Shown here: piece by piece, positions 5,729-52,350 of the stretch
Layout of the letters: each line of letters starts with the position of its first letter
Numbering within the stretch: position 1 is the stretch's first letter
Assembly (NCBI GenBank): GCA_938074325.1
Contig: CALJFZ010000015.1
Location: 1 to 64,000 of the forward strand
Source of the DNA: an uncultured Flavobacteriales bacterium
GTDB taxonomy: Bacteria > Bacteroidota > Bacteroidia > Flavobacteriales_D > Sanyastnellaceae
Direction: 5' to 3'
Length of the DNA stretch: 64,000 nt
Notes under the pieces: generated by a model
What the model was told of the DNA's origin: nothing
The model's input: only the letters and a program-made list of their open reading frames with translations
The model's database searches: none
Translations under genes and position numbers: made by a program

Positions 5729-5736
5729 TAGCTTTG
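5729..5736 (+). promoter_or_regulatory. Putative -7 element abutting the permease start
   Basis: TAGCTTTG matches the consensus exactly and is separated from the ATG at 5741 by only TTCC. The predicted transcription start falls on the A of the ATG, suggesting a leaderless mRNA. Confidence 0.65.
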
Positions 5737-5740
5737 TTCC

Positions 5741-6982
5741 ATGCTCTGGCTCCGCCTGCTTTTTGAAAGTTTTGCCTTCGCTTGGTCGGCCATCGTCACC
5801 AACCGATTGCGAACGTTTCTGTCGCTGCTTGGCGTGATGGTGGGAATCTTCATGATCACAGCGGTATTTGCTGTGGTCGATTCGTTGGAAGATGGGTTGA
5901 AGAGCACCTTCAACATGCTGGACGATGAAGTGCTGTTCATTCAAAAGTGGCCATGGGCGTTTGACGAGGAGTACCCCTGGTGGAAATACGTTCAGCGCCG
6001 GGAGGTTAGTTTGGCCGACGCGGACCTTTTGGAGGAGCGCTTGACGCTGGCGAAGGATGTTGTGTTCCAAGCCAAAGCCTCATTGCCCATGGAGTCCAAA
6101 AACAGCCGCATGGATGGGGTGTTTGTCGCAGCAGTCTCCGAGGGGTACAGCGATGTCATTGCCTTGAACATTGCCAACGGTCGCTATTTCTCGCCCATGG
6201 AGGTTCAGTCGGGCCGGGCCGTGATGATCATCGGGCACGACGTGGCCGTTGAGTTGACGGGAGATGCCGATGCTGTCGGACAGCTTTTGGACGTCAAGGG
6301 TCAGCGTCTGGAGGTCGTAGGCGTATTTGCCAAAGAAGGAGCTTCGGCCATCAATGAAGGGTTTGACCGGGCGGCCCTGGTGCCGGCCAAATTCGGCCAC
6401 CGAATCATGGATTATGGTTTGGGCACGCAAATCATGGTCAAGCCGAAGGAAGGCATTACGACAGAGGCCCTCTCGGATGAGATTGTCCAACAATTCCGTT
6501 CGGTACGTCGCCTGCGTCCACGGGAGGAAGACGACTTTTCCATCAACCAAATTGACATGTTGACCACCATCTTGGATTCCATTTTCCAACAAGTGGAATA
6601 CGGCGGCTGGTTCATTGGCATTTTTGCCATCCTCGTGGGCTGTTTCAGCATCGCCAACATCATGTTTGTCAGTGTCCGCGAGCGCACGCGCATCATTGGG
6701 GTGCAAAAGGCCATCGGCGCCAAATCTTCCTTCATCATGCTGCAGTTCTTGTTTGAAGCGGTCGCTTTGTGTGTGATTGGAGCGCTGTTCGCCTTGTTGG
6801 CCATCGAGGCCATTGTCTTGGTTGTCAATGCCATCGATATCGGCTTTGCTATGAACGTGCGGCCATCGCGCATCATTGTTGCCCTGAGTGTTGCCGTGGC
6901 CTCGGGTTTAATTGCCGGGCTGGCTCCTGCCCGACGTGCGGCAGAGATGGAACCGGTTGAAGCCATGAGAACCAACGGATGA
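5741..6982 (+). CDS. MacB/FtsX-type ABC transporter permease
   Basis: Inner-membrane permease of the MacB/LolC mechanotransmission type. The 413-residue protein has one N-terminal membrane segment (about 25-45), a large periplasmic MacB-PCD domain (about 50-270), then three C-terminal membrane segments with the FtsX signature region RERTRIIGVQKAIGAKSS. The substrate cannot be told. No ATPase partner is adjacent, so it must use one encoded elsewhere. It is first in a likely run with rfbD and a phosphohexomutase, although rfbD has its own promoter element. Confidence 0.88.
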   Translation: MLWLRLLFESFAFAWSAIVTNRLRTFLSLLGVMVGIFMITAVFAVVDSLEDGLKSTFNMLDDEVLFIQKWPWAFDEEYPWWKYVQRREVSLADADLLEERLTLAKDVVFQAKASLPMESKNSRMDGVFVAAVSEGYSDVIALNIANGRYFSPMEVQSGRAVMIIGHDVAVELTGDADAVGQLLDVKGQRLEVVGVFAKEGASAINEGFDRAALVPAKFGHRIMDYGLGTQIMVKPKEGITTEALSDEIVQQFRSVRRLRPREEDDFSINQIDMLTTILDSIFQQVEYGGWFIGIFAILVGCFSIANIMFVSVRERTRIIGVQKAIGAKSSFIMLQFLFEAVALCVIGALFALLAIEAIVLVVNAIDIGFAMNVRPSRIIVALSVAVASGLIAGLAPARRAAEMEPVEAMRTNG

Positions 6983-6994
6983 TGGACAATTCGC

Positions 6995-7002
6995 TACCTT
7001 CG
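6995..7002 (+). promoter_or_regulatory. Putative -7 element deciding the rfbD start
   Basis: TACCTTCG lies 3 nt upstream of the ATG at 7006 but downstream of two earlier in-frame ATGs (6979 and 6982). A message starting at this promoter would use 7006, which also gives the expected Rossmann N-terminus. Confidence 0.6.
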
Positions 7003-7005
7003 ACC

Positions 7006-7878
7006 ATGCGGAAAGTGTTGGTGACGGGGGCCAAAGGCCAATTGGGTTCGAGGTTGCTGGAATGCGTTCACCCCGGCCTCCAAGTCGTGGGTTTGGACCG
7101 AGAAGTCCTCGATCTCACCGATTCGGATTCCGTCGACTCCGCCCTCCAGGCCCACTTGCCCGACGTGGTCATCAATGCAGCAGCGTACACAGCTGTGGAC
7201 CAAGCGGAGACAGAACGTGATCAAGCCCACTCCGTGAATGCCACCGGTGCAGAAATCCTTGCCCGAGCCTGTGCTCAGCGAGGAGTGGACCTCATTCACA
7301 TCAGCACAGACTATGTTTTCGACGGGACGGGCTCACGGCCCTACCGACCTGAAGACTCCCCTCGTCCAATTGGCGCCTACGGGGCATCCAAACTCGCCGG
7401 CGAACGTGCCGTGCAAGCAGCATTTGAAGCTGCACAGGCTGGATGGTGGGTGATTCGCATCGCATGGCTGTGTGATGTGCGCGGTCAAAACTTCATGCAG
7501 ACCATGTTGCGTTTGGGGCGTTCAGGCAAGGCGTTGAAGGTGGTAAACGATCAATACGGGACGCCGACTTTTGCCCGGCCCTTTGCCGAAGCCTTGATGA
7601 ACTTAGCAGCTCATCCACACGCTGCAGCAAGGGGTGTTCACCACTACAGCCACTTGGGCCAGACAACGTGGCACGGGTTTGCTCAGGCCATTTTTGACTT
7701 CCACGGACTGGAGGTAAATTTGGCCGCCTGCTCTACGTCGGAGTACCCTACACCCGCACAACGGCCTGCCTATTCTTGTTTGGATGGAAGGGAATTTGCC
7801 CGGTTAATCGAGCAGGAACAAAGGGATTGGAAAGACGTGATGGCATCGGAATTGAAGCGAGATCAACAGGAGAATTGA
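7006..7878 (+). CDS. rfbD: dTDP-4-dehydrorhamnose reductase
   Basis: NAD(P)H-dependent reductase that finishes dTDP-L-rhamnose, a precursor for surface polysaccharide. The 290-residue product begins directly with the Rossmann nucleotide loop (VTGAKGQLG), carries NAAAYTAVDQAE and STDYVFDG, and has the extended-SDR Y-x3-K in YGASKLAG. The third in-frame ATG is chosen because it gives the normal N-terminus and follows a promoter-like TACCTTCG. The ATG at 6979 overlaps the permease stop and would add nine residues unlike the family. rfbA, rfbB and rfbC are not in the window. Confidence 0.9.
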   Translation: MRKVLVTGAKGQLGSRLLECVHPGLQVVGLDREVLDLTDSDSVDSALQAHLPDVVINAAAYTAVDQAETERDQAHSVNATGAEILARACAQRGVDLIHISTDYVFDGTGSRPYRPEDSPRPIGAYGASKLAGERAVQAAFEAAQAGWWVIRIAWLCDVRGQNFMQTMLRLGRSGKALKVVNDQYGTPTFARPFAEALMNLAAHPHAAARGVHHYSHLGQTTWHGFAQAIFDFHGLEVNLAACSTSEYPTPAQRPAYSCLDGREFARLIEQEQRDWKDVMASELKRDQQEN

Positions 7879-7881
7879 ATC

Positions 7882-9642: not shown

Positions 9643-9648
9643 GGAAGG

Positions 9649-10233
9649 TCAGTCTTCGCGGTTGCGCAACTGCAAGGTCGCGTCCTCCAGTTGTTCCATG
9701 CCGTCTTCCAGTCGGTCCTTGATCACACCCCATGGCGTGTTGCGGTGCATGGATGGCACGACGTATTCAATGGCCGTCTCCACGCGCGGGTACAACACAG
9801 AGCGCTCAATGTGCTCCTCCGGCAACCACTTCCTCGGTCCAAATACACCGTCCAATGCAAAGGTCAGGGCGCTCAGAAAAAACAAGGTTTGAACCAAGCC
9901 AAGGAGGAGGCCGCCCAGTTTATTCACTAGACTCAACGCCGTGAGGTCCACAATGCGTTCCAACACTTTTGCCAGGAAATGCACGCCCACTACCACGGCG
10001 ATGAAGGTCAAGGCAAATGCGCCGACTTCCGTGGTACGGGTGGACCAATCGAATTGGTCATTCAGCCATTCTGCGGCAAAGCTTGAAAAGTGGAATCCCG
10101 CGAATATTCCTGCGACCAGCGCGACGATGGAGGCTACCTTGATAATGAGCCCTTTACGGAATCCATTGAACATGGCCCAAGCGAGCAAAACGCCCAGCAC
10201 AGCATCCAACGCACCTATTTGATCCCATTCCAT
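9649..10233 (-). CDS. cvpA: CvpA family membrane protein
   Basis: Integral membrane protein of the CvpA family (194 residues), whose members are linked to colicin V export and envelope stress; the molecular role is unsettled. Four hydrophobic segments are visible (about residues 8-24, 28-48, 64-84 and 100-122) followed by a polar C-terminal tail. It converges on the phosphomutase with six bases between stops and diverges from the acetyltransferase upstream. Confidence 0.85.
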   Translation of the reverse strand: MEWDQIGALDAVLGVLLAWAMFNGFRKGLIIKVASIVALVAGIFAGFHFSSFAAEWLNDQFDWSTRTTEVGAFALTFIAVVVGVHFLAKVLERIVDLTALSLVNKLGGLLLGLVQTLFFLSALTFALDGVFGPRKWLPEEHIERSVLYPRVETAIEYVVPSMHRNTPWGVIKDRLEDGMEQLEDATLQLRNRED

Positions 10234-10237
10234 GCCG

Positions 10238-10244
10238 CAAAATA
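10238..10244 (-). promoter_or_regulatory. Weak -7-like element abutting cvpA
   Basis: Minus-strand TATTTTG is one base shorter than TAnnTTTG and sits 4 nt before the cvpA ATG, matching the spacing of stronger elements in this window. Reported with low confidence because of the missing base. Confidence 0.3.
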
Positions 10245-10259
10245 GAAAGAATGCGGCGC

Positions 10260-10267
10260 TACCTTTG
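10260..10267 (+). promoter_or_regulatory. Putative -7 element abutting the acetyltransferase start
   Basis: TACCTTTG, an exact consensus match, is followed by GACC and then the ATG at 10272. It overlaps the reading frame of the upstream ATG at 10251, arguing that 10272 is the real start and that the mRNA is leaderless. Confidence 0.65.
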
Positions 10268-10271
10268 GACC

Positions 10272-10766
10272 ATGTTGGATTCGAATGAAGGCTTTGTTGT
10301 TCGTGAGGGTACGCCTGATGACGTCCCGGCGGTTCATCGCCTCATCGTGGAGTTGGCCATTTACGAAAGGGCGGAGAAAGAGGTGACGAATTCAGTGGAG
10401 CAGCTGCTGGCGGACGGGTTTGGACCCCACGCGATTTACCGGCTGTTCGTCGCTGAGCATGAAGGAGAAGTCGTAGGAATGGCGCTGTGGTACGAGAAGT
10501 ACAGCACGTGGAAAGGGCGGTGTGGATTCCTAGAAGACTTGGTGGTCCGGAAAGACATGCGCGGAAAAGGCATGGGCAAGGCCTTGTTCCTCGCCGTTGC
10601 AAAGGCTTGTGCGGAGGCCGATTACGGCCGGATGGAATGGCAGGTGTTGAATTGGAATGAGCCTGCGATTGGCTTTTACAAGTCGCTTGGCGCAGAACTG
10701 GATCCGGAGTGGTTGAACGGCAAACTCACCCGAGCGGGGTTGAGCGCCTTGAGTGAAGGCCGCTAG
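10272..10766 (+). CDS. GNAT family N-acetyltransferase
   Basis: Acetyl-CoA-dependent N-acetyltransferase of 164 residues. The GNAT fold is recognised by the N-terminal REGTPDDVPAVHRLI, the acetyl-CoA loop region VVRKDMRGKGMGKAL (Q/R-x2-G-x-G/A pattern) and the C-terminal WNEPAIGFYKSLGA. The arrangement resembles spermidine/thialysine acetyltransferases, but the substrate is inferred only loosely. The ATG at 10272 is preferred over 10251 because a promoter element lies between them. Its TAG shares the bases CTAG with the stop of the convergent DUF2795 gene. Confidence 0.85.
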   Translation: MLDSNEGFVVREGTPDDVPAVHRLIVELAIYERAEKEVTNSVEQLLADGFGPHAIYRLFVAEHEGEVVGMALWYEKYSTWKGRCGFLEDLVVRKDMRGKGMGKALFLAVAKACAEADYGRMEWQVLNWNEPAIGFYKSLGAELDPEWLNGKLTRAGLSALSEGR

Positions 10767-10984
10767 TATTCGTCTTCGTTGAAGAAGAAGTCCTCCTTGC
10801 TCGGGTAGTCAGGCCAAATGTCCTCGATGGTTTCGAACGCATCGCCCTCGTCCTCCAACTGCTGCAAGTTCTCGACCACTTCCAAGGGTGCGCCGGTGCG
10901 CATCGCGAAGTCAATCAATTCGTCTTTGCTAGCTGGCCAAGGGGCGTCTTCGAGGTACGAAGCCAATTCAAGTGTCCAATACAT
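10763..10984 (-). CDS. DUF2795 family small acidic protein
   Basis: 73-residue protein of a family widespread and strongly conserved in Bacteroidota; function unknown. The sequence is acidic with a helical DUF2795-like region (DELIDFAMRTGAP at about residues 21-33) and an acidic aromatic tail ending FFFNEDEY. Part of the DUF2795 family is thought to adopt a small helical nucleic-acid-binding-like fold, which I cannot confirm here. A TATTTTTG promoter element lies 19 nt upstream. The stop overlaps the acetyltransferase stop on the other strand. Confidence 0.85.
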   Translation of the reverse strand: MYWTLELASYLEDAPWPASKDELIDFAMRTGAPLEVVENLQQLEDEGDAFETIEDIWPDYPSKEDFFFNEDEY

Positions 10985-11003
10985 GGTAAGCGTCTTCAGC
11001 GCG

Positions 11004-11011
11004 CAAAAATA
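11004..11011 (-). promoter_or_regulatory. Putative -7 promoter element of the DUF2795 gene
   Basis: Minus-strand TATTTTTG matches TAnnTTTG and ends 19 nt before the ATG. It suggests transcription independent of the upstream adenosyltransferase gene. Confidence 0.5.
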
Positions 11012-11054
11012 GAAGATTCACAATCACATCCAAGAAAATCTTCAGAAAGGAGCA

Positions 11055-11080
11055 GATTTCCCCGTAAAATGGCGGAAATC
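11055..11080 (-). terminator. Possible hairpin downstream of the adenosyltransferase gene
   Basis: GATTTCC (11055-11061) and GGAAATC (11074-11080) form a perfect 7-bp inverted repeat with a 12-nt loop, starting just after the adenosyltransferase stop at 11087. No T-run follows, so it may be a weak or factor-dependent terminator, or an RNA 3' end stabiliser. Confidence 0.3.
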
Positions 11081-16052: not shown

Positions 16053-16060
16053 TAATTTTG
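16053..16060 (+). promoter_or_regulatory. Putative -7 element abutting dusB
   Basis: TAATTTTG, an exact consensus match, ends 2 nt before the ATG at 16063. A TTG at 16028-16030 gives a plausible -33 element with 22-nt spacing. Transcription would begin at or just inside the ATG, so either the mRNA is leaderless or the GTG at 16117 is used. Confidence 0.6.
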
Positions 16061-20243: not shown

Positions 20244-20689
20244 CAGAACCAGCCGTACGCTTCAAATCCTGGACGGAAAGGCCAAGGAATGCTAGCGACG
20301 ATGATGAGCAACGCCAAGCCAAAGTAGCGGAGCTGCCGCTTGTGCTTCATCTCGTCGGTTTGCGCGCGTTTCACCAAACTGTGGCCGAGGGTACCGAAGA
20401 GGATGGCCAAAAGCATGCCCACCAAGTGCTCCACAGTAAAGAAGCGCATGACGGTGTTTTGCATGACGCCGGGCTGCCCCAGCATGGACATCCATCCTTT
20501 CATCATGTACAGCGCGAGTCCCAACACGAGTTGAATGTGCATGCTGATCATGGTGAACAGGCCCAGTTTGCCTTGGCCTGAGGTGAAGGTATTGTTGCGG
20601 TTTTGCCACGCCTTGACCAAGGTCACGACAAGCAAAGCGAGTACCACCCAGCGCAACGCGCTGTGCATGTGTTGGAATCCAGTAATCAT
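20243..20689 (-). CDS. Conserved four-helix membrane protein (cytochrome-b-like family of Bacteroidota)
   Basis: 148-residue integral membrane protein with four hydrophobic segments and several membrane-proximal His residues (HMHSALRW at the N-terminus, MHIQLVLG, VEHLVG, LGHSL). Bacteroidota homologues are often labelled cytochrome B, because the paired His could bind haem, but this is not established to my knowledge. Overlap with a cytochrome c gene supports a redox role. A TATCTTTG element ends 4 nt before the ATG. Confidence 0.8.
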   Translation of the reverse strand: MITGFQHMHSALRWVVLALLVVTLVKAWQNRNNTFTSGQGKLGLFTMISMHIQLVLGLALYMMKGWMSMLGQPGVMQNTVMRFFTVEHLVGMLLAILFGTLGHSLVKRAQTDEMKHKRQLRYFGLALLIIVASIPWPFRPGFEAYGWF

Positions 20690-20693
20690 GGCG

Positions 20694-20701
20694 CAAAGAT
20701 A
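20694..20701 (-). promoter_or_regulatory. Putative -7 element abutting the five-gene cytochrome-hflX run
   Basis: Minus-strand TATCTTTG (exact match) is followed by CGCC and then the ATG at 20689. It would drive the run membrane protein, cytochrome c, hflX, rbfA and LolC-like permease from a leaderless start. Confidence 0.65.
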
Positions 20702-22110: not shown

Positions 22111-22914
22111 TCACAGGGAAGAAGTTCGGCCTCCGTCGACCGGTAAATTAATGCCGGAGATGTAACTCGCTGAGGGTGAGGCTAAAAAGGCGATGGCCCG
22201 CGCCACTTCTTCCGGTTCTCCGGTGCGTTTCATGGGCACAACATTGGCCATTTGTGCCCGAATTTCTGCGGTTGAGGCTCCGGTTTTGCTCGCCTTGTTG
22301 GCAACGATCTGCTCCAACCGGGCTGTGTTCGTGGCGCCTGGCAACACGTTATTGACCGTAATGCCGTGCACGCCTACTTCGTTGGCCCAGGTCTTGGCCC
22401 AATTGGCGACGGCTCCGCGGATGGTGTTGCTGACCCCCAAGTTGTTCAGGGGCTGCTTGACACTTGTGCTGATGACATTGATGATGCGACCATATCCGGC
22501 GGCTTTCATGCCTGGAAGCACCGCTTGAGCAAGCAGGTGGTTGCATACCAAATGCTGTTGGAAGGTGTTCAAGAATGCTTCGACTTCTGCCTCTACGATG
22601 GGGCCCCCGGCGGGTCCGCCGGTGTTGTTGATGAGGATGTGTGCCGGGTGCGCTTCGACCACCTTGGCAATGGCGGTTTTCACTTCCTCCGGACGACTGA
22701 AATCGGCCTGGGCAACGGCGTGGCGTTCGGGGTTGGGCAGCTGTTTCAGAGCAGCGTCGAGCCGTTCAGCGTTCCGGGCTACCAATGTGACTTGCGCACC
22801 GAGGCCGGCCAAATGTTGCGCTGCAGCCAACCCAATTCCCTGGGTTGCACCGCACACCACCGCGTGCTTGCCCTCAAGCCCCAGTGGCATCCATGTATTC
22901 GTCGAATCCGTCAT
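22111..22914 (-). CDS. SDR family oxidoreductase with atypical active site
   Basis: 267-residue short-chain dehydrogenase-like protein. The Rossmann loop GATQGIG (residues 22-28) and the NNTGG motif are present, as is the C-terminal GINLPVDGG. The catalytic Y-x3-K is absent: the equivalent stretch after the serine of VISTSVKQ reads LGVSNTIRGAVANWAK, without Tyr. A FabG-like SDR subgroup shows this change, so it is probably natural rather than damage. Activity and substrate are unknown. The start follows a TACCTTCG element by 4 nt. Confidence 0.85.
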   Translation of the reverse strand: MTDSTNTWMPLGLEGKHAVVCGATQGIGLAAAQHLAGLGAQVTLVARNAERLDAALKQLPNPERHAVAQADFSRPEEVKTAIAKVVEAHPAHILINNTGGPAGGPIVEAEVEAFLNTFQQHLVCNHLLAQAVLPGMKAAGYGRIINVISTSVKQPLNNLGVSNTIRGAVANWAKTWANEVGVHGITVNNVLPGATNTARLEQIVANKASKTGASTAEIRAQMANVVPMKRTGEPEEVARAIAFLASPSASYISGINLPVDGGRTSSL

Positions 22915-22918
22915 GCGA

Positions 22919-22926
22919 CGAAGGTA
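22919..22926 (-). promoter_or_regulatory. Putative -7 element abutting the SDR start
   Basis: Minus-strand TACCTTCG, then TCGC, then the ATG at 22914. The same octamer lies upstream of rfbD and tRNA-Pro. Confidence 0.55.
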
Positions 22927-25697: not shown

Positions 25698-26867
25698 TTA
25701 GCGCACAGTGGCGTCGATGGCTTGGGCGAGGTCGGCAATCAGGTCGTCGGCGTCTTCAACCCCGACGCTTAAGCGCACAAACCCATCGGAAATCCCGAGT
25801 TCTGCGCGGATCTCCGCAGGAACGCTCGCATGCGTCATGGCAGCGGGATGCTCAATCAGCGATTCGACACCGCCCAAGGATTCTGCCAACGCAAAAATGC
25901 GCGTCGCCGCTACGAGATTTTTGGCTTGTTCGAGGTCATTGCCTTTGATCTCGAACGCAATCATGCCGCCAAAATCGTCCATTTGACGGGCGGCGATGTC
26001 ATGACCGGGGTGGTCTTCAAATCCAGGCCAGTAGACTTTTTCAATTTTGGGATTGTCGCGCAACCAATGCGCCACTTTTCGGCCATTGGCACATGATCGT
26101 TCCACACGCAAATGCAGTGTTTTCAATCCACGTAGCACGAGGAAAGAATCAAAGGGCTGGGCGATGGCGCCGCAGTTGTTTTGGATGGTGCGCAGCGGGC
26201 CGTCAATGTCGGCGTTCTTCGTGATGAGCGCGCCCATCACGACGTCGCTGTGTCCGCCCAAGTACTTGGTGACAGAGTGCATCACGATGTCGGCTCCGTG
26301 CTCAAGCGGCCGCTGCAACATGGGGGAGGCGAAGGTATTATCGACCGCCAGTAGAATGCCACGCGGTTGAGTCAATGCGGCGATGGCTTGGATGTCCGTG
26401 ATCTGCATCAACGGATTGGTCGGGCTTTCCAACCAGACCAACTTGGTGCGTTCGGTAATGGCCGCTTCGACCAGCTCGGGTTTTTGGGTGTCGACAAAGT
26501 GAAAGACCAGGCCCATGGGAGCGTGGTTCGTGCGGAACAACCGAGCAGTCCCTCCGTACAAATCTTGACCCGCGATGATTTCGTCGCCGGGCTTCAGCGT
26601 CTTGAGCACCGCATCAATGGCGGCCAACCCGGAGGCAAAGGCCAATCCGTGGGTGCCGCCTTCCAATTCGGCAAATGCCGTCTCCAACGCCGCGCGCGTG
26701 GGGTTGTGGCTTCGGGAGTACTCCCACCCTTTGTGGACGCCAACGGCTTCCTGTACGTAGGTTGAAGTTTGAAAAATGGGGGTCATGATCGCCCCGGTCG
26801 AAGGGTCCGGCTCAACGCCAGCGTGCACCGCACGCGTACCCTTTCCGAATTGTTGCAGGTCTTTCAT
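25698..26867 (-). CDS. metB: Cystathionine gamma-synthase/lyase family PLP enzyme
   Basis: PLP-dependent trans-sulfuration enzyme, 389 residues. The catalytic lysine is K201 in HSVTKYLGGHSD; other markers are YSRSHNPTRAALE, FASGLAAIDAVL and SLGGVESLIEHP. The family includes cystathionine synthase, cystathionine lyase and methionine lyase, which cannot be separated reliably by eye. It starts 11 nt after the YbhN-like gene and is followed by kmo. The longer open frame runs back into the preceding gene and is not used. Confidence 0.88.
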   Translation of the reverse strand: MKDLQQFGKGTRAVHAGVEPDPSTGAIMTPIFQTSTYVQEAVGVHKGWEYSRSHNPTRAALETAFAELEGGTHGLAFASGLAAIDAVLKTLKPGDEIIAGQDLYGGTARLFRTNHAPMGLVFHFVDTQKPELVEAAITERTKLVWLESPTNPLMQITDIQAIAALTQPRGILLAVDNTFASPMLQRPLEHGADIVMHSVTKYLGGHSDVVMGALITKNADIDGPLRTIQNNCGAIAQPFDSFLVLRGLKTLHLRVERSCANGRKVAHWLRDNPKIEKVYWPGFEDHPGHDIAARQMDDFGGMIAFEIKGNDLEQAKNLVAATRIFALAESLGGVESLIEHPAAMTHASVPAEIRAELGISDGFVRLSVGVEDADDLIADLAQAIDATVR

Positions 26868-26878
26868 CGGAATCAAAG

Positions 26879-27961
26879 TTACGGCGCCTTCCGCTGTGTT
26901 CGCACCAGCCAACTCGGCAGTGCAAACGCACCAGCCACCAGGTAAATGAAGTAGGTGAATGTGCGCCAAAGCAGGACCACTGCTGCGATGTACGCCAACC
27001 CAGTTAGGTCACTTAAGAAAGCGGGTAGGCCGAGTTCAGCGGCACCCGAAGAGCCAGGGGTGGGGCTAATGGAAAGCACCAGCCAAAGCAAAAGTTGACG
27101 GGCTAAAACCGCAGCGTGCTCAACTTGAGGGTAGAATACGAGCAGTACCATATTCAACGTCACAAAGCGGGCCGTCCAACTCGAGCAGGTCGCTGCAAAC
27201 CCTTTTACCCAATACCCCAGCGGTGCATTTCGAATGGTGTGAGAAGCTTCGAGCAGATCATCGGCCCATGCTCCGATGCGCTCACTCCAGCGTTTGAGTA
27301 CCCGCGTCGATTTGGCCCACAGCAAAAGCCGGTGGGTCGACTGCGGTTTGAGCACAAGTCCAAACAGCATGGTAGCTGTCAACGTGGCAATGAAAGCATA
27401 GGCCAGCCAGAACACCGACTGGGCACCCCATGCGGCAGATTCAAACCCGGCCGGAACGTCCGGAAAAATCGCATGCCCGCCGGATGTCGCCCACAAGAAA
27501 GCCAACGGCACAGCCAACAGGTAAAAGGCCTCGTCCATCATGGCCGTGGCAAACACCGTGGCCAAACTCTTTCCCCAGCGCAGGCCATCGCGTTTCAGAA
27601 TCACCACTGCAACGGCAGATCCGCCCACCACACTGGGGGTCAGCGCAGAAGCCAGTTCCCACAGCAAAATGTTTTCCGTTGCTTGCCGCCAGGTGAACGC
27701 GCCAAAGGACAGCACACGCAGCCGGATGATGTAACCCAAGTCCCGCACCAACACGCAACCCAACACGCCCAACAAAGCGTAGCTCGAGCGCGTAGACCAC
27801 GCAAATTCCCGGAGGAGTTCCCAGGAGGTTGAGGTCGCCCCGGTCTCCGGATTTGTCACAGGGTACTGGGCCCCAAACCAAATCAAGGCTGCAGCAGCGG
27901 CGACACCGATGACCACCGGTGCAATCCATTGGTTCCATTTGAAAACGGTGCCCTCCGCCAT
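26879..27961 (-). CDS. YbhN/AglD-type flippase-like membrane protein
   Basis: 360-residue polytopic membrane protein of the lysylphosphatidylglycerol synthase transmembrane region family (PF03706). About eight hydrophobic segments and the characteristic LTPSVVGGSAVAVVIL and SISPTPGSSGAAELGLP segments are visible. Members are proposed lipid or lipid-linked-sugar flippases. No synthase domain is attached. A paralogue lies at 31523. It follows the radical SAM gene by 20 nt. Confidence 0.83.
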   Translation of the reverse strand: MAEGTVFKWNQWIAPVVIGVAAAAALIWFGAQYPVTNPETGATSTSWELLREFAWSTRSSYALLGVLGCVLVRDLGYIIRLRVLSFGAFTWRQATENILLWELASALTPSVVGGSAVAVVILKRDGLRWGKSLATVFATAMMDEAFYLLAVPLAFLWATSGGHAIFPDVPAGFESAAWGAQSVFWLAYAFIATLTATMLFGLVLKPQSTHRLLLWAKSTRVLKRWSERIGAWADDLLEASHTIRNAPLGYWVKGFAATCSSWTARFVTLNMVLLVFYPQVEHAAVLARQLLLWLVLSISPTPGSSGAAELGLPAFLSDLTGLAYIAAVVLLWRTFTYFIYLVAGAFALPSWLVRTQRKAP

Positions 27962-27981: not shown

Positions 27982-29025
27982 TCAAGCGTACGCGTGGCTT
28001 CCTTCGGAACAATTTTGGCACATTTCGACACCTGCACGGTCGGTGAAAATTTGCTTTCGAAACGCATCGTACTCCGGGCTGAACCAGATGTCTTTGAAGG
28101 GCTGTTGGCCGACCTGGCCCATGGTGTGGTGGGCGTCCTTGTCAAAGCAACAAGGAACCACGCGGCCGTCCCAAGTCATGACACATCCTTGCCACATCCG
28201 CCAGCATTCATCGGCCAACGGATTGCGCAGTTTCCACACCCCGTTTGCATCCCGATCGTACCTCCTCAATTCAGGGGACTGCGTCAAAAGGGGGTGTCCA
28301 TCCTCGGGTTGGTCTATCTGCGCTGTTTTGATGACCAGCTCGTCCACACCGATTTGCCGGGCGTGTTCCTGCACTTCTTGCACTTCGTGTTCATTGGGCC
28401 CCACGACCAGGAACTGCCAAACGAGGTGGGGGCCGCTTCCGTTGTTGGCTTTTCGCGCCGCGACCATGTTGCGCGTGCCTTCCAATACTTTGTCCAACTG
28501 CCCTCCAACGCGGTAGGAGGCATACGTTGACTGGGTCATGCCATCGATGCTGATGATCAGCCGGCTGAGGCCGGAGGCAACGATTTCCGCACATCGCTCG
28601 GGGCGCAGGAAATGCGCATTCGTGGAGGTCGAGGTGTACAGGTTGTGTTTGGCCCCCATGGCGACCAATTCATTCATCTGCGGATGGAGGTAGGGTTCAC
28701 CTTGGAAGTACAGGTTCAAGTAGACCAATTTTGGCCCTACCTCATTCAATACCGCCTCCAAGACTTCGGGGTCCAACATGCCGGTTGGCCGGGTAAACGA
28801 CCGCAGTCCAGAAGGGCATTCCGGACAACGCAAGTTGCAGGAAGTGGTGGGCTCAATGCTCAAACTCATGGGCCACGCTTGTTGCGCGCTCCAACCGCCT
28901 TTTTTGTTTTGGGCGTAGCTTCTATAGGCCACGTAGGCATTGGCCACCCGCTTCGCATTCAAGGGTTTCAACCGTTTGAATCGATCCCGAATTGTCGCGC
29001 GTGTATTCCTCCATCCCAAGGCCAT
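27982..29025 (-). CDS. Radical SAM / SPASM domain protein
   Basis: 347-residue enzyme expected to cleave S-adenosylmethionine with a 4Fe-4S cluster. The cluster motif is C-N-L-R-C-P-E-C (C-x3-C-x2-C) after SLSIEPTTS, followed by FQGEPYLHP. A C-terminal SPASM-like cysteine set (ECWRMWQGC, VVPCCFD, MCQNCSEG) suggests a second cluster. Substrate is unknown; no small peptide precursor gene is seen next to it. The ATG at 29025 is chosen because a TACCTTTG element ends 3 nt upstream; the open frame beyond it overlaps the divergent DUF3109 gene. Confidence 0.88.
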   Translation of the reverse strand: MALGWRNTRATIRDRFKRLKPLNAKRVANAYVAYRSYAQNKKGGWSAQQAWPMSLSIEPTTSCNLRCPECPSGLRSFTRPTGMLDPEVLEAVLNEVGPKLVYLNLYFQGEPYLHPQMNELVAMGAKHNLYTSTSTNAHFLRPERCAEIVASGLSRLIISIDGMTQSTYASYRVGGQLDKVLEGTRNMVAARKANNGSGPHLVWQFLVVGPNEHEVQEVQEHARQIGVDELVIKTAQIDQPEDGHPLLTQSPELRRYDRDANGVWKLRNPLADECWRMWQGCVMTWDGRVVPCCFDKDAHHTMGQVGQQPFKDIWFSPEYDAFRKQIFTDRAGVEMCQNCSEGSHAYA

Positions 29026-29028
29026 AAC

Positions 29029-29036
29029 CAAAGGTA
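29029..29036 (-). promoter_or_regulatory. Putative -7 element abutting the radical SAM gene
   Basis: Minus-strand TACCTTTG (exact match), then GTT, then the ATG at 29025. It probably drives the whole five-gene run down to 23379. Confidence 0.65.
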
Positions 29037-29057: not shown

Positions 29058-29065
29058 TAATTTCG
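29058..29065 (+). promoter_or_regulatory. Putative -7 element abutting the DUF3109 gene
   Basis: TAATTTCG, then TCCC, then the ATG at 29070. Together with 29029-29036 it gives two divergent, apparently leaderless starts within 44 intergenic bases. Confidence 0.55.
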
Positions 29066-29069
29066 TCCC

Positions 29070-29648
29070 ATGATTGCGATCGGTGATACGTTGATTTCTG
29101 AGGATGTGTTCGATACGCTCTTTGCGTGCGACTTGAAAGCGTGCAAAGGCGCTTGTTGCGTGGAAGGTGAAAGCGGCGCACCACTCACCGAAGAGGAGGT
29201 GGACCGCATTGAAGAAGCCTTCGAGGTGGTCAAATCCCAACTCCGTCCTGAAGCGTTGGCAGTCATCGATGAGGTCGGGCTTTTTGAAGTCGACCAGGAC
29301 GGCGATTACGTCACCCCCATCATCAACGGACGGGAATGCGTTTACGCGACTTTCGAGGCGGACGGCACTGCGAAATGTGCGTTTGAAGCGGCCTGGCGGG
29401 AAGGCAAGTCGGATTGGCCGAAGCCCATTTCGTGCCACCTGTATCCCATTCGCCTTAAAGAGTTGCAAGATTTCACAGCACTCAATGTCCACCGCTGGCC
29501 CATTTGTGATGGCGCCAGAACGTGCGGTGCCAAGGCGAATGTCACCGTATTGGACTTTTGCAAAACGGCTCTGGTCCGTCGCTTCGGGGAAGCTTGGTAC
29601 GAGGAAGCTCAAACCGTTTGGAAAGCATGGAAAGCCCAGCAAGGATGA
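29070..29648 (+). CDS. DUF3109 family cysteine-rich protein
   Basis: 192-residue cytosolic protein of a family conserved in Bacteroidota; function unknown. Conserved cysteines cluster at C20, C25, C29 and C30 (ACDLKACKGACC), with more in GRECVY, AKCAFE, ISCHLYP, ICDGARTC and DFCK, a pattern that suggests metal or cluster binding akin to the YkgJ zinc/iron-chelating family. Its TGA overlaps the ATG of the OmpA-like gene. Confidence 0.87.
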   Translation: MIAIGDTLISEDVFDTLFACDLKACKGACCVEGESGAPLTEEEVDRIEEAFEVVKSQLRPEALAVIDEVGLFEVDQDGDYVTPIINGRECVYATFEADGTAKCAFEAAWREGKSDWPKPISCHLYPIRLKELQDFTALNVHRWPICDGARTCGAKANVTVLDFCKTALVRRFGEAWYEEAQTVWKAWKAQQG

Positions 29649-31146: not shown

Positions 31147-31154
31147 TACTTTTG
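31147..31154 (+). promoter_or_regulatory. Putative -7 element abutting panD
   Basis: TACTTTTG (exact match), then CGCCC, then the ATG at 31160. It would give a leaderless panD mRNA. Confidence 0.65.
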
Positions 31155-31159
31155 CGCCC

Positions 31160-31513
31160 ATGCTTGTAACCCTCATGCGATCCAAACTCCACCGGTTGTC
31201 GGTGACACGGGCCAATTTGAACTACATCGGTTCCATTACCTTGGATCCCGACTTGCTCGATGCAGCGGGACTGTTCGAAGGAGAAAAGGTCCAGATCGTC
31301 AACATCAACAACGGTGAGCGCTTTGAAACCTATACAATCGTGGGCGAGCGAGGCTCAGGCCAAGTGGAGCTCAACGGACCAGCTGCCCGCCGTGTCCAAG
31401 TAGGGGACGTCATCATCGTCATTGCATATGGTCACATGACCCCAGAGGAAGCAGCAAACCACAAACCCGTCTTGGTCTTCCCCGATACGGAAACCAACCG
31501 CCTCAACGCGTAA
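31160..31513 (+). CDS. panD: Aspartate 1-decarboxylase proenzyme
   Basis: Makes beta-alanine for pantothenate and CoA. 117 residues; the self-cleavage site that produces the pyruvoyl group is G24-S25 in NYIGSITLD. The N-terminal SKLHR and the later [13 protein letters not shown] are family hallmarks. It is followed nine bases later by a YbhN-type gene, then rfaE2. Confidence 0.96.
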
Positions 31514-31522: not shown

Positions 31523-32497
31523 ATGAACGTCAAACAAGTCCTCACCTACGTCGTTTCATTGGGCATTGGTGTGGTTTTGTTTTACCTGGCGTTTTCCTTC
31601 ATTGACGATAAGGATGCACTGTGGGAAACCATGCGCTCTGCGAGTTGGGAGGGCATTGCAGCCTCTTTCGTCATGGGCTACCTCGCCATTGTAAGCCGAG
31701 GGTTGCGGTGGGGCATTTTGCTTGAACCGCTTGGTCGAAAGGCCGGTGCGGCACGAAGTGTGCACGCCGTCGCTTTTGCTTATTTCGCAAATACGTTCGT
31801 CCCGCGCAGTGGAGAACTGGCGCGGTGTGCCGCGCTGAATCAGACCGATGACATCCCGGTGGATGAGCTTTTTGGTACGGTCATCAGCGAACGGGTCATC
31901 GATTTTGCCTTCTTGATGGTGTTGACGGCAGCTGCTGTCCTGGGTAATATTCCGGCCTTTGCGCAATTGTTGGAAGGGGCGGTGTTGCCGGATCTGACCA
32001 ATTTGATGGCCTTGGGTGCGGCAGCTTTGGGCTTGATCGGGGTGCTCATCTGGAAGCGGAAAGAATTATTGGCTTTGCCGTTTGCCCGAAAAATTGCGGA
32101 CTTTCTGACCGGTGTCTGGAGCGGACTGAACAGCATCCGCCACATGAAACAGAAGGGACGCTTCATGGCCCACACGTTTTTCATTTGGTTCATGTACTTC
32201 TTTATGGCTTGGGTGATTTTCAAGTCCTTCGACGAAGTACAGGACATTTCCATCTTGCAAGCGCTGTTCATCATGGTGGCTGGAGGCTTTGGCATGGTGA
32301 TCCCAGCACCCGGAGGGGTGGGCTCTTACCAATGGGCGGTCATGACCGGCTTCATGGCGTTGGGCTACGGCAAGGCCTTGGGGCTAGCGGTCGCCAACAT
32401 CATTTGGTTCACCCAAACGGCCATGATCGTGACGATGGGAGGCATTGCGTACCTCTATTTGTTGGTCTATCGGTTGCGCAAAGACCGGAAAGCATGA
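31523..32497 (+). CDS. YbhN/AglD-type flippase-like membrane protein (second copy)
   Basis: 324-residue polytopic membrane protein, PF03706 family, with about eight hydrophobic segments. Markers are [20 protein letters not shown] and [17 protein letters not shown], the latter corresponding to the SPTPGSSGAAELGLP segment of the paralogue at 26879. The two share family but little direct identity, so they look like old paralogues. Its TGA overlaps the rfaE2 ATG, and a role near LPS or other glycolipid assembly is inferred. Confidence 0.85.
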
Positions 32498-36858: not shown

Positions 36859-36935
36859 CATAGAACGAACCGTATGCACAAATTTGATTTCTGTGCCCGC
36901 TGGAAAGGCTCGTGGGGCTTTTCCTCCGAAGCGAT

Positions 36936-38003
36936 TCAGTAACGCTCTTTGCGCTTGGGCGGGGCAATCTCCAGTGGATTTGCCGTCAGCTCGCGGTGTT
37001 CGATTCGGTTGAAACGTATGTCACGCGCCATGAAAATGGCGGCGCGGAGTGAATCTGGATGTGCATCTCCTTGGCCGGCGATGTCAAAGCCCGTTCCGTG
37101 GTCAGGACTGGTGCGAACGATGGGCAAGCCAGCCGTGAAGTTGACGCCATTCCCAAAGCTCAACGCCTTGAACGGACCGAGGCCTTGGTCGTGGTACATG
37201 GCCAAAACCCCGTCGAATTGTTTGTGTGTGCCTGCGCCGAAAAATCCGTCTGCGGGGTAAGGACCCATGACAAATTTGCCTTCGGCGCTCAAGTCTTTGA
37301 TGGCCGGCGCGATGATGCGCTTTTCCTCGTCGCCCATCAGGCCGTTGTCGCTTGCATGCGGGTTGAGGCCGAGGACCGCAATGCGTGGCTGGGCAATGCC
37401 ATAGTCCCGGACCAATGCGTCGTGCATCAGCCGCGCCTTTTTCTTGATGAGGTCTGGACTCAAAAGATTGGATACGTCTTTGAGGGCTACATGACCAGTG
37501 CACATGCCTACACGGAGGTCACCGGAGACGAGCAACATCAGGACATCGTCCACATTCGCAAAGTCAGCGAGGTACTCGGTGTGCCCGGGGTGCTTAAAGG
37601 CACCTTGGCGCATGGCTTCCTTGTGGATGGGCAGGGTGACGAGCACATCCACTTTCGTGCTGGCCAAATCATTGACCACGGTTTCCAATGACTTCATAGC
37701 GAAGTCCCCGGCTTTGCCATCCACTTGTCCCCATTGGATGTCCCAGGGTTCTTCTTGAATGGCAACGATGTTGATCTGGTCTTGTTTGGCCTTGTCGGCG
37801 CTTTCGACAACCGCCCACGCCACTGCGGGTTCCCCCAACTTTTCAGCCATGGCTTCGAGCAGGTTCGGTGTGCCGTAAAATACAGGCGTCGCTTCACGGA
37901 ACATACGGTTGTCCTGGAAGACTTTGATCAGGATTTCTGCGCCAATTCCGTTGGGGTCGCCGCAACTAAATCCGATGGTTGTTGGTTTTTTTTTGGAAGC
38001 CAT
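36936..38003 (-). CDS. pdxA: 4-hydroxythreonine-4-phosphate dehydrogenase
   Basis: NAD-dependent enzyme of the DXP-dependent pyridoxal phosphate pathway. 355 residues from the ATG giving MASKKKP. Markers are FSCGDPNGIGAEI, the metal His in GHTEYLAD, NPHASDNGLMGDEE, and YHDQGLGPFK. The longer open frame has a basic leader and overlaps the divergent type IX cargo gene; it is rejected because a TAACTTTG element ends 9 nt before the chosen ATG. Confidence 0.95.
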   Translation of the reverse strand: MASKKKPTTIGFSCGDPNGIGAEILIKVFQDNRMFREATPVFYGTPNLLEAMAEKLGEPAVAWAVVESADKAKQDQINIVAIQEEPWDIQWGQVDGKAGDFAMKSLETVVNDLASTKVDVLVTLPIHKEAMRQGAFKHPGHTEYLADFANVDDVLMLLVSGDLRVGMCTGHVALKDVSNLLSPDLIKKKARLMHDALVRDYGIAQPRIAVLGLNPHASDNGLMGDEEKRIIAPAIKDLSAEGKFVMGPYPADGFFGAGTHKQFDGVLAMYHDQGLGPFKALSFGNGVNFTAGLPIVRTSPDHGTGFDIAGQGDAHPDSLRAAIFMARDIRFNRIEHRELTANPLEIAPPKRKERY

Positions 38004-41327: not shown

Positions 41328-42069
41328 GGCGCAACACAAAGTTTTGCCCAAGGTAGACCCGGCGCACTTGTTCGTCGGAAGCCAGTTCTTCTGCGGTGCC
41401 GTGCTTCAGAATGCGCCCTTCGAATAGCAAGTAAGCACGGTCGGTGATGTGCAGTGTTTCTTGGACGTTGTGGTCCGTGATGAGGATGCCAATGTTCCGG
41501 CGGCGCAGTTTTTCTACGATGCGCTGAATATCTTCCACGGCAATGGGGTCGACCCCTGCAAACGGCTCGTCGAGCAGGATGAACTGGGGGTCGGTTGCCA
41601 GCGCCCGTGCGATTTCCGTTCGGCGTCGCTCACCGCCACTTAGCACGTCGCCGTTCGACTTGCGCACCTTTTCCAGGCCGAACTCCCGAATGAGTTCTTC
41701 GAGCCGTTCCTTTTGCTCGGCTTTGGAAAGGGATTGCAATTCCAAGATGGCCATGATGTTGTCCTCCACCGTGAGTTTTCGGAATACCGATGCCTCTTGA
41801 GGAAGGTAGCCAATGCCCATTCGCCCCCGCTTGTACATGGGCAGGTCGGTGACTTCATGGCCATTGACGAACACCTGGCCTTCATCGGGTTGCACCAGGC
41901 CTACTACCGTGTAAAAACTGGTGGTTTTGCCGGCACCATTGGGCCCCAATAATCCGACGACCTCTCCCGGATTGACTTCGAGCGAGACACCGTCCACCAC
42001 TCGGCGCTTGCCGTATTGCTTGACGAGGCCTTCGGCTCGGAGCTTTGCGTTGGTGGCTGAGGTGTTCAT
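41305..42069 (-). CDS. lptB: LPS export ABC transporter ATP-binding protein
   Basis: ATPase powering LPS extraction by LptFG. 254 residues with Walker [10 protein letters not shown]-loop YLPQEASVF, signature LSGGERRR and Walker [16 protein letters not shown]; the latter two sequences are typical of LptB. LptF and LptG are not nearby, as is common. The start at 42069 follows a TACTTTTG element by 5 nt. Confidence 0.95.
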
Positions 42070-42074
42070 GGTTT

Positions 42075-42082
42075 CAAAAGTA
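42075..42082 (-). promoter_or_regulatory. Putative -7 element abutting lptB
   Basis: Minus-strand TACTTTTG (exact match), then AAACC, then the ATG at 42069. It predicts a leaderless lptB mRNA separate from the upstream DUF5686 gene. Confidence 0.65.
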
Positions 42083-44574: not shown

Positions 44575-45394
44575 GGGTTCGATTGCGGTGTACGCGTTTC
44601 GCGATAACAATGCTGAGCTCGTACAGCACGAGTACCGGCAACGAGACCAGGACTTGGCTTGTGACGTCCGGTGGCGTGATCAACGCGGAAAGGACCAAAA
44701 TCGCCACGAGGGCGTGCCGACGGTATGTCTTCAAGATGGCCGGAGTCAAAAGGCCTGCACGGCTCAGGAAGTACACGATGACCGGCAACTGAAAGACCAT
44801 TCCTGCGGCCAAGGTGATGGAGGCCACGGTCTTCATATAGGACATGACCGAAATCCGCGATTGTACATCGCCCAACTCGTAGTTTCCCAAGAATTGAAGC
44901 GAAAGCGGGGCAATGACGTAATAGCCAAAAGCGACCCCAGTGAAGAAGAGGAGGGACGAACTGAAGCCAATGCCTCGAGCAGAACGGCGTTCACTTTCTT
45001 TCAACGCCGGCCGCACAAAGAGCCAGCCTTGCCAAAAAACGAACGGGAAAGCGGCGATGAATCCAGCGATGGCGGAGACCAAAATGTGCGTGGTGAAGTT
45101 GCCGAGCATGGTGGTGTTGATCAGCTCGTAGTTGATGCTGTCTACACACAGTGCTTCACCTGCACCCACCCATTCCGAAAGTTGACACCAAGCACGGAAC
45201 GTGATGAAATCCACATTGCGCGGGCCGAACAGGACCACGTCAAACAGCCAATCCTTTGCTAAGAACAGTCCGATGCCTCCGGCAACCACAAAAAATGCCG
45301 CGTAGAAAAGCCGCTTCCTCAGCTCTTCCAAGTGGTCCAGGAAGCCCATTTCGACATCCTGGCCCGGTTGCTCATCCAATTGATCCAACGGCAT
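44567..45394 (-). CDS. tatC: Sec-independent protein translocase TatC
   Basis: Core receptor of the twin-arginine export channel. 275 residues with six hydrophobic segments, the N-terminal FLDHLEELRKRL motif, and the FQLPVIVYFLSRAGL segment. tatA/B are not in the window. The ATG follows TAATTTTG by 4 nt. kdsD lies upstream, as in relatives. Confidence 0.95.
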   Translation of the reverse strand: MPLDQLDEQPGQDVEMGFLDHLEELRKRLFYAAFFVVAGGIGLFLAKDWLFDVVLFGPRNVDFITFRAWCQLSEWVGAGEALCVDSINYELINTTMLGNFTTHILVSAIAGFIAAFPFVFWQGWLFVRPALKESERRSARGIGFSSSLLFFTGVAFGYYVIAPLSLQFLGNYELGDVQSRISVMSYMKTVASITLAAGMVFQLPVIVYFLSRAGLLTPAILKTYRRHALVAILVLSALITPPDVTSQVLVSLPVLVLYELSIVIAKRVHRNRTHA

Positions 45395-45398
45395 GGTG

Positions 45399-45406
45399 CA
45401 AAATTA
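45399..45406 (-). promoter_or_regulatory. Putative -7 element abutting tatC
   Basis: Minus-strand TAATTTTG (exact match), then CACC, then the ATG at 45394. A TTTG at 45422-45425 with 15-nt spacing is a possible -33 element. Confidence 0.65.
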
Positions 45407-48710: not shown

Positions 48711-48713
48711 GTA

Positions 48714-49100
48714 TCACGAACTAAGGTCGTGCCAAGCGCGCACGATGAGCCTTCCAGCTGCGAAAAGCATGAAGGTACCGAACACAAGCCGCACCACGGC
48801 GGGATTGATTTTCAACGCCCATTTGCTGCCCAACCAGGCGCCTAGAACGAACGTTACCGCCAACACAGCTGCATACTCGAGTTGGATTTGACCGGCACGG
48901 TAGTAACTCATAACGGCCAAGATGCCGATGGGTGGAATCATCATGGCCAAAGATGTTCCCTGCGCCATGTGTTGGCTGAGGCCCAGTCCAAAAACCAAGG
49001 CGGGCACGATGATCATCCCTCCACCGATGCCGACAAATCCACTGGCGATTCCGGCAATCAGTCCAATGCAGAGAAGGAGGATTAGGGTGTTCATGTCCAT
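48714..49100 (-). CDS. Half-length TauE/SafE-type membrane protein
   Basis: 128-residue protein with four hydrophobic segments matching one half of the TauE/SafE (sulfite/organosulfonate exporter-like) family: GFVGIGGGMIIVP at the start and VLGAWLGSKWALKI later. Full-length members repeat this unit twice, so this one may work as a dimer. Substrate unknown. Its ATG shares bases with the stop of the large upstream gene and it converges on recQ. Confidence 0.8.
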   Translation of the reverse strand: MDMNTLILLLCIGLIAGIASGFVGIGGGMIIVPALVFGLGLSQHMAQGTSLAMMIPPIGILAVMSYYRAGQIQLEYAAVLAVTFVLGAWLGSKWALKINPAVVRLVFGTFMLFAAGRLIVRAWHDLSS

Positions 49101-52100: not shown

Positions 52101-52336
52101 GCCACTTCCGCTGTGATGCGGTTGGCGTAAGCCTTTCCCCCTTGGTAGTAGTAGACTTCAGCCCGAGACGTGGGCAGATACTGCCATTCAAAGGTGCGGT
52201 GTTGGACGCGGTTTTTGCCGTATTCGACGTTTGAACCGTCATAGAATTGCCCCCAACTGACTGCGGTCACCAAGGCCATGCCGGCGCACCAAACTGCACG
52301 TGAAATGCACCGTATGAAATAGCTTTGTGACCGCAT
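49100..52336 (-). CDS. Large envelope protein: peptidase MA-like domain, PD40 propeller, BamA-like barrel
   Basis: 1078 residues from the ATG giving MRSQSYF; signal peptide to about residue 29. Residues about 50-290 resemble the gluzincin peptidase MA fold (ILVYNKQAEFRQSN, FPEWFTEGLHSYVAQPW) but no H-E-x2-H is present: the equivalent helix reads RKSLSNLLFNQ. A WD40-like PD40 propeller (about 320-600; YSEDGGTIYFASNRP) follows, and the last ~400 residues look like a surface-antigen (BamA/Omp85-like) barrel ending in RIFNLSLQLDF with a terminal Phe. This architecture occurs in Bacteroidota, often labelled TolB-like; function unknown. The longer open frame overlaps the divergent MBL gene and is rejected. 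Confidence 0.82.
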   Translation of the reverse strand: MRSQSYFIRCISRAVWCAGMALVTAVSWGQFYDGSNVEYGKNRVQHRTFEWQYLPTSRAEVYYYQGGKAYANRITAEVANWIEQVETLYDRSIEGTVQILVYNKQAEFRQSNIGSNAVDTQNIGGTAVLVGSKIFVYADGTWEHTAEDLRKSLSNLLFNQILYGGNWQEALRSSTTGITFPEWFTEGLHSYVAQPWSAEAGLHVWDAARCGDIVHAHRTTGSLARWVGHGVWKYIADVFGEGVIANALYMVRVSSNLEKGLQYATGMDLVLLLEEASRYHQDTAGEAEIFPPLASRRDLRMARKNSGDLALPLRRDVDFRSLTVHPDGDIYAWARDERGQLEIWVGNRSTGTSQRVGRHGHKIDRIQDRTLPAMAWHPNGNVLTYALEQGSRTLLYSIDLTTWESIEKEVFRIDKILSMAYAPDGLSMIWSGVKDGQSDLYRYQVLGNNHTALWSDPYDDLQPVYSEDGGTIYFASNRPNTQLDKEWILGQPLDPNHDIFALQWNEEVPELVHWVNTDLRDETHPQVQDDEHLTFLVELEDGSQERWTSWRDSAVAYIDTTIHYRWFTQQRLATRIAQPVSDFQWIPSRGTAAFTHQLQGHPFWVETAENRADWEDINPTGLAIQSSEVQLDWDWKPSPTEADFRNYVFGPWTAEEPEEPTSVEVAPDEATATDWTPFNLPKPRNYRLNYAIESVTGQLDNSFGSTFYQAYSGNIAVQPGLGGLSQISVTDLFENRRFTAGFRLAGSLENSRYLFAYEDLTGRWDKSWVIERQGVTQGVDNNQTFTRTHIHILRRQWKYAIDEVRSFRIQGTYRLDRITPLSTDAFNLTKPTQFAGQVGGQLAYVFDNTRQRMINIPEGTRYRIWAEYFINPNETAATFGTVGMDFRTYKPIWRNVIWANRLAMDWSIGEQRLLHMVGGVDNTLSLAANAQSPIDPNINYAYQTRLAPLRGFNANARNGSHMALFNSELRVPVWSTLSAQPVETELLQTLQCVGFFDIGSAWNGSHPYDDANTFNQVTVTQNPITVTIDNNREPIIWGTGFGFRAKVLGYWLRTDWSWGVDDGRWQDRIFNLSLQLDF

Positions 52337-52342
52337 TCCATT

Positions 52343-52350
52343 CGAAGTTA
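52343..52350 (-). promoter_or_regulatory. Putative -7 element before the propeller/barrel gene
   Basis: Minus-strand TAACTTCG ends 6 nt before the ATG at 52336. It fits the TAnnTTCG variant and predicts almost no leader. Confidence 0.5.

Follow-up and report, generated by a model that had tools for sequence, protein, structure and literature searches.

Does the window, by which we mean the whole 64,000-nt stretch of DNA analyzed here, hold genes whose mRNAs begin at the start codon itself? A preliminary description had listed twelve genes in which the -7 element TAnnTTTG or TAnnTTCG ends 2–6 nt before the ATG, and had proposed that their mRNAs are leaderless and that they coexist with a class of leadered genes. 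The reading we favor, with a probability of roughly 0.87, is that these are Bacteroidota-type primary-sigma promoters set so that transcription would start on the A of the AUG or 1–2 nt before it. A leaderless mRNA is the best reading for nine of the twelve genes. It probably fails for dusB and is weak for the GNAT acetyltransferase, and the barrel gene at 52336 (d6, as defined below) would probably have a leader of 1–2 nt instead.

Putative promoter elements beside start codons in the window

All twelve motif/ATG pairs were recovered in a direct scan of the window, with coordinates and spacers as first described. Distances are given as d, the number of nucleotides between the -7 element (TAnnTTTG or TAnnTTCG) and the start codon. 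On the forward strand, the element precedes a MacB/FtsX-type permease identified with Pfam (5729..5743, TAGCTTTG-N4-ATG at 5741, d4), rmlD/rfbD (6995..7008, TACCTTCG-N3-ATG at 7006, d3), the GNAT acetyltransferase (10260..10274, TACCTTTG-N4-ATG at 10272, d4), a DUF3109 gene (29058..29072, TAATTTCG-N4-ATG at 29070, d4), and panD (31147..31162, TACTTTTG-N5-ATG at 31160, d5). The dusB element TAATTTTG (16053..16060, forward strand) lies at d2 from the claimed ATG 16063, and the start of this gene is probably GTG 16117. On the reverse strand, the element precedes a small membrane protein (20687..20701, TATCTTTG-N4-ATG at 20689, d4), an SDR oxidoreductase (22912..22926, TACCTTCG-N4-ATG at 22914, d4), a radical SAM/SPASM protein (29023..29036, TACCTTTG-N3-ATG at 29025, d3), lptB (42067..42082, TACTTTTG-N5-ATG at 42069, d5), tatC (45392..45406, TAATTTTG-N4-ATG at 45394, d4), and a PD40 beta-propeller protein assigned with Pfam, the barrel gene (52334..52350, TAACTTCG-N6-ATG at 52336, d6). 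One further reverse-strand site, overlooked earlier, precedes a Cys/Met-metabolism PLP enzyme at 26867 (26865..26881, TAACTTTG-N6-ATG, d6). The radical SAM and DUF3109 genes are divergent, with ATGs 44 nt apart and both -7 elements between them.

Some neighboring sites were set aside or noted separately. A GTG at 54114 on the reverse strand has the motif at d4, and this match was rejected as a coincidence, the motif being the coding end of an upstream response regulator. The possibility that the region upstream of the barrel gene is coding was also rejected; the conserved upstream sequence belongs to a divergent metallo-beta-lactamase-fold gene at 52358. Divergent promoters overlap at 52320–52358, where TAGCTTTG, the -7 element of the forward gene (52358), falls within the first codons of the reverse-strand beta-propeller gene, and CAAAGCTA is conserved in these early codons among the relatives compared.

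Spacing compared with chance

A count of motif-to-start distances across the genome, proposed in the preliminary description, gave a spike at 4 nt. The genome that holds the window is 2.15 Mb in 59 contigs and 88% complete, and the sample drawn from it comprises 464 kb (the 64-kb window plus 400 kb). Counting ATGs that open frames of at least 100 codons, distances of 0 to 8 nt yielded 2, 1, 1, 2, 16, 6, 4, 2, and 0 sites for TAnnTTTG and 1, 0, 1, 1, 12, 4, 1, 4, and 2 for TAnnTTCG. Both motifs thus peak at 4 nt (16 and 12 sites), and the remaining distances up to 30 nt hold 0–6 sites. Nine control motifs (permuted, reversed, complementary, or with altered last bases) gave 0–5 sites per distance in the same 464 kb. 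The close spacing first claimed was confirmed and its width of 2–6 nt was not: the effective range is 3–6 nt, with a mode of 4. Over the whole genome, TANNTTYG-N4-ATG occurs at 120 sites, as against 17 with N10.

A motif-blind gene caller, whose start calls are crude, predicted 352 genes in the 464 kb. The element lies at d4 in 22 of them and at d3–7 in 34, where 0.09 genes per distance are expected from motif density and 0.77 from the mean over d8–60; with nearby alternative starts in the same frame admitted, 41 of the 352 have it at d3–6. The caller chose the identical start at 6 of the 12 genes first listed (P = 2e-10) and another start in the same frame at the remaining six. For the window, the earlier chance estimate of 0.15 was of the right order (motif density gives 0.075 for 59 blind-called genes at five distances). 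AUG is preferred, with a d4 element at 26 of 758 in-frame ATG codons near called starts, 5 of 512 GTG codons, and 1 of 830 TTG codons. The element lies at the distance that would place +1 on the start codon, and the pattern is neither chance nor confined to the window. The two coexisting classes were likewise borne out, with 34 elements at d3–7 and 41 at d8–60 in this sample.

The 34 leaderless-type genes include 17 with a divergent neighbor, 15 with a same-strand neighbor at least 10 nt away, and two with a closer one; same-strand neighbors under 10 nt occur at 89 of 352 genes overall. Because such a close neighbor is found in just 2 of 34, most leaderless-type genes head transcription units. 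Longer transcripts may additionally cover those that lie behind a same-strand neighbor.

Start codons and conservation in orthologs

Protein family models begin at residue 1 in panD (TIGR00223) and DUF3109 (PF11307) and at residue 3 in rmlD (TIGR01214), so that the ATG beside the element is very probably the true start of these three genes. For the other genes the models stop short of the N terminus. In dusB, where the claimed ATG lacks this support, the Dus models begin at residues 23 and 33, and GTG 16117 opens the conserved part. Neither of two close relatives keeps ATG 16063: in G312 (94% identical) the element is followed 4 nt later by a GTG, and G300 (86% identical) has no start codon at this position. 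The motif lies at d3–6 of a start in 3 of 29 dusB orthologs, and in two the start is 54 nt downstream. Most likely, dusB is leadered and starts downstream of ATG 16063, with TAATTTTG as its promoter, and the G312 gene could itself be leaderless.

Ortholog sets were restricted to alignments starting within residue 30, with at least 35% identity, half coverage, and distinct upstream sequences; loci from the window's own genome and two thaumarchaeal loci (L041 and L042) were removed. Counts are of distinct upstreams with the element at d3–6 of an in-frame start. By this measure, the element is present in 6 of 6 orthologs of the permease, 5 of 6 of panD, 12 of 17 of the barrel gene (d6 every time), 19 of 28 of DUF3109 (d4 in 10, d5 in 9), 13 of 20 of tatC, and 7 of 13 of the radical SAM gene. 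Among 19 tatC loci compared, TAATTTTG occurs in 14, at d4 in 13 and d6 in one, with differing spacer letters; in the distant L038 and L039 the element is absent, and the tatC start either overlaps the upstream stop codon or lies no more than about 10 nt from it. SDR orthologs carry the element in 19 of 30 cases, at starts displaced by -6 (1), 0 (5), +6 (3), +24 (8), and +48 nt (2), and the motif therefore moves with the start codon. The strict element was found in 8 of 19 lptB orthologs, several more having TAnnTTAG or TAnnTTTA at d4. The small membrane protein has it in three of four relatives and GNAT in one of five, with near-matches in the others. Gene 26867 has the strict element at d3–6 in two of five orthologs, and among close relatives three have it at d5, d6, and d7; for rfbD the count is 5 of 29. 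Conservation is poor in rfbD, lptB, 26867, and GNAT. In sum, many orthologs retain the element and its spacing while spacer and flanks have diverged. A reversed-motif control gave zero in all 14 gene sets, and the motif at d9–12 was found 0–2 times per set, except in pdxA (9 of 15).

This last gene, at 38003 on the reverse strand, has no ortholog with the element at d3–6 (0 of 15). Its -7 element is conserved 9 nt ahead of the ATG, which would give a leader of about 5 nt. At 36861 (reverse strand), three relatives share a conserved TACCTTTGCACTCCCCAAAAT that falls barely within the open reading frame as called, and the gene start is thus probably downstream.

Predicted promoter geometry

The -7 element of the Bacteroidota primary sigma factor, TAnnTTTG, is present, and TAnnTTCG spikes too. 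Published spacings from this element to the transcription start site (TSS) are 4–5 nt in Flavobacterium johnsoniae (PMC6847099), and the box lies at -12 to -5 in Flavobacterium psychrophilum (PMC9723704). Since the 4-nt spacer equals the published -7-to-TSS spacing, the A of the ATG would be +1. The base before the ATG was compared between gene classes, using d4 elements whose ATG had been called as the start. In the window's genome, C occupies -1 in 19 of 20 such genes; the corresponding counts are 14 of 29 for leadered genes (Fisher P = 6e-4) and 39 of 77 for operon-internal genes (P = 2e-4), and about half of all starts in this genome have C at this position. In a pool of four relatives, the excess was not significant (9 of 11 d4 genes versus 16 of 28 and 20 of 42), and the d4 genes of G264, a member of the same family, have C in 3 of 6 and a pyrimidine in 6 of 6. 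A C at -1 fits a pyrimidine-purine start. No TTTG or TTG peak was found in the -33 region of 108 promoters, likewise chosen as d4 elements before a called ATG; the -33 TTTG is likewise described as not evident in F. johnsoniae (PMC6847099).

Frequency across the family, order, and phylum

Genomes were compared by their share, meaning the background-corrected fraction at d3–7 among all consensus -7 elements no more than 60 nt from a called start. It is 0.48 in the window's genome (34 at d3–7 versus 41 at d8–60) and 0.40 in the pool of relatives (24 versus 39), which consists of three same-genus genomes and G293 of the same family and is not independent of the window, its members having been picked for synteny with it. 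Other members of the family have shares of 0.52 (G327; 12 versus 12), 0.53 (G264; 17 versus 18), 0.41 (G330; 8 versus 15), and 0.30 (G309; 4 versus 11). The arrangement is thus seen in all six family samples, with shares of 30%–53%, as against 13%–22% in samples from three further families of the order (G350, 0.13, 5 versus 37; G248, 0.22, 10 versus 40; G268, 0.17, 5 versus 28). Four family samples (own, pool, G327, and G264) compared with these three give an odds ratio of 4.15 (Fisher P = 1.3e-7), the relatives not being independent; G330 and G309, added to the sampling later, are outside this test. By these counts, the arrangement would be used by about a tenth of called genes and about half of the genes in the window's genome that have a consensus -7 element within 60 nt. 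More distant genomes gave 0.34 (G115; 8 versus 17), 0.27 (G033; 4 versus 12), 0.11 (G166; 1 versus 8), and 0.43 (G144; 6 versus 9, none of the 6 at d4, in a 140-kb sample).

The ratio of d4 to d10 sites, which is inflated at high GC because the d10 background falls, has a median of 3.89 in the window's family (41 genomes, range 1.99–13.38), 2.13 in family f2 (41 genomes), and 1.38 in family f45 (39 genomes). Median excesses per Mb are 36.8, 26.3, and 8.6, respectively. The window's genome ranks fourth by this ratio among 150 genomes of the order. On a by-eye reading of 247 genomes across the phylum, no other genome with 20 or more d4 sites has a higher ratio. High ratios also occur in G136 (73/12) and G144 (76/14), which belong to f24 of another class, and in G115 (97/22) of another order, all with genomes of 2.0–2.6 Mb; these are perhaps independent gains.

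Larger genomes in the window's family tend to have lower ratios (Spearman -0.63, 41 genomes) and a lower excess per Mb (-0.53). In f2 only the excess per Mb is significantly related to size (-0.49; for the ratio, -0.22), and in f45 neither measure is. On the question of genome streamlining, the 4.1-Mb G264 looks no less leaderless than other members of its family. GC content alone is no explanation, on small numbers, because the share stays high in family members at 42%–43% GC (0.41 in one, 0.30 in the other) and is low in another family's genome at 61% GC (0.11, 9 sites). The relatives with names are Flavobacteriales metagenome assemblies, and isolate names hint at a possible seawater habitat.

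Anti-Shine-Dalgarno sequence and rpsU

No 16S rRNA gene was found in the window's assembly. Matches were found in 2 of 16 genomes of its genus, with a readable 3' end in one, G303 (L194). This end reads GGATTATCTCC versus GGATCACCTCC, with UCUCC replacing CCUCC in the core. In a wider survey, 27 of 80 genomes had a 16S match and 25 were tried for the 3' end, that of G144 being unreadable. Loss of the anti-Shine-Dalgarno (anti-SD) core as the driver of leaderless use was considered and rejected. CCUCC is also lost in G332, G350, G261, and G012, which have d4/d10 ratios of 1.21, 2.14 (share 0.13), 1.27, and 1.50, and is kept in all six other members of the window's family with a readable 3' end. 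Since low-ratio genomes lose CCUCC and family members keep it, the change has no clean link to leaderless use.

Chryseobacteria are reported to pair UCUCA with a matching SD sequence before rpsU, and many Flavobacteriales to have a strong rpsU SD sequence (PMC9976891). Fifteen S21 loci were found in the window's genus, 11 of them with readable upstreams (L287–L290, L292–L294, and L296–L299, with L293 from the window's genome). An SD-like purine run was absent in all 11. In the same 11, a -7 element lies exactly 18 nt ahead of the ATG, and the leader has a common CCAATT motif. Tentatively, and with the balance against it, leaderless initiation might be the main route in this family, joined in the window's genus with abandoned SD pairing (UCUCC and the SD-less rpsU).

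Proposed mechanism and alternative explanations

The motif TAnnTT[TC]G is present in the DNA, and a sigma-ABfr-type RNA polymerase would bind it. The polymerase would melt the DNA and begin transcription 5 nt past the final G, at a purine that is the A of the ATG; we infer this start from the published spacing together with the C at -1. A ribosome with initiator tRNA bound would then accept the resulting leaderless mRNA at its 5' AUG, with no SD pairing, as has been described for other leaderless mRNAs (PMC10783764).

An improbable alternative is that the promoters are real and the true start codons lie farther downstream, behind ordinary leaders, with the nearby ATG incidental. This probably describes dusB, given the unconserved ATG 16063, the later domain models, and the conserved part from GTG 16117, but the families of panD, DUF3109, and rmlD begin at the near ATG, the SDR motif follows its start codon, and DUF3109, tatC, and the permease retain motif and ATG jointly. 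Nor would downstream starts yield a 4-nt spike to the ATG. We consider it slightly less probable again that the element is a translation-initiation signal or a compositional bias at start codons, with transcription from upstream. Bacteroidota do show an A/U-rich bias ahead of start codons (PMC5397173 and PMC6847099), and C at -1 is general in the window's genome. However, the 8-mer is the published -7 element, it occurs farther upstream of other genes (the 41 elements at d8–60), and it is rare at genes with a same-strand neighbor under 10 nt (2 of 89 at d3–7 and 1 of 89 at d8–60). Chance matches of a loose motif account for some sites, such as 54114, but are by far the least probable general account and are refuted as such by 22 elements at d4, where 0.09 or 0.77 were expected, and by ortholog conservation. 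Promoters that would start transcription at or next to the AUG thus remain the preferred reading.

Relation to known systems

Leaderless or very short leaders, the TAnnTTTG -7 element, and the -7-to-TSS spacing are shared with three Bacteroidota species: F. psychrophilum, for which 5.5% leaderless mRNAs are reported (PMC9723704), F. johnsoniae, with 13% of leaders at most 10 nt (PMC6847099), and Bacteroides thetaiotaomicron, with 3.7% under 10 nt (PMC7366714). Unlike in those species, about half of consensus -7 elements within 60 nt lie here at leaderless distance, a sequence count whose denominator differs from that of TSS maps. TAnnTTCG is also nearly as frequent here as TAnnTTTG, unlike in the three species. 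As in Actinobacteria and Deinococcus-Thermus (Zheng et al. 2011, PMC3160421), a -10-like element abuts the start in a sizeable share of genes, but theirs is a Pribnow-like TANNNT about 12 bp before the start. The same study reports its signal in 1 of 37 Bacteroidetes/Chlorobi genomes, in 2.4% of its genes, and acknowledges as a limitation that it considered Pribnow-like signals alone. Nakagawa et al. 2017 (PMC5397173) describe a bias at -20 to -10, in four Bacteroidetes genomes among others, that may reflect a leaderless promoter box; in contrast to the present counts, the accessible portion of that paper gives none that is TAnnTTTG-specific or at the gene level. Among the matches listed from the open-access literature, there was no report of a Bacteroidota lineage at a comparable leaderless level. 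Leaderless Bacteroidota mRNAs are already known, and their predicted extent in this family looks new.

Bacteroidota initiate translation without SD pairing, and leaderless mRNAs of F. johnsoniae were judged too few to explain this (PMC6847099). A family in which about half of the genes with consensus promoters look leaderless is a natural system for studying the choice that ribosomes make between a 5' AUG and an A-rich leader. For practical work, the promoter box is an aid in locating start codons and TSSs where metagenomes are the sole source of a genome.

A related motif, TAnnTTG[CA], lies 3–6 nt before the ATG at 10233 and 27961 on the reverse strand and at 31523 and 38054 on the forward strand, with similar arrangements in some close relatives. 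It resembles the SM5 alternative-sigma box TAnnTTGY of F. psychrophilum, and TAnnTTGY occurs in the 464-kb sample in small counts (two at d3 and three at d4). The TAnnTTG[CA] sites are possibly a second leaderless promoter class.
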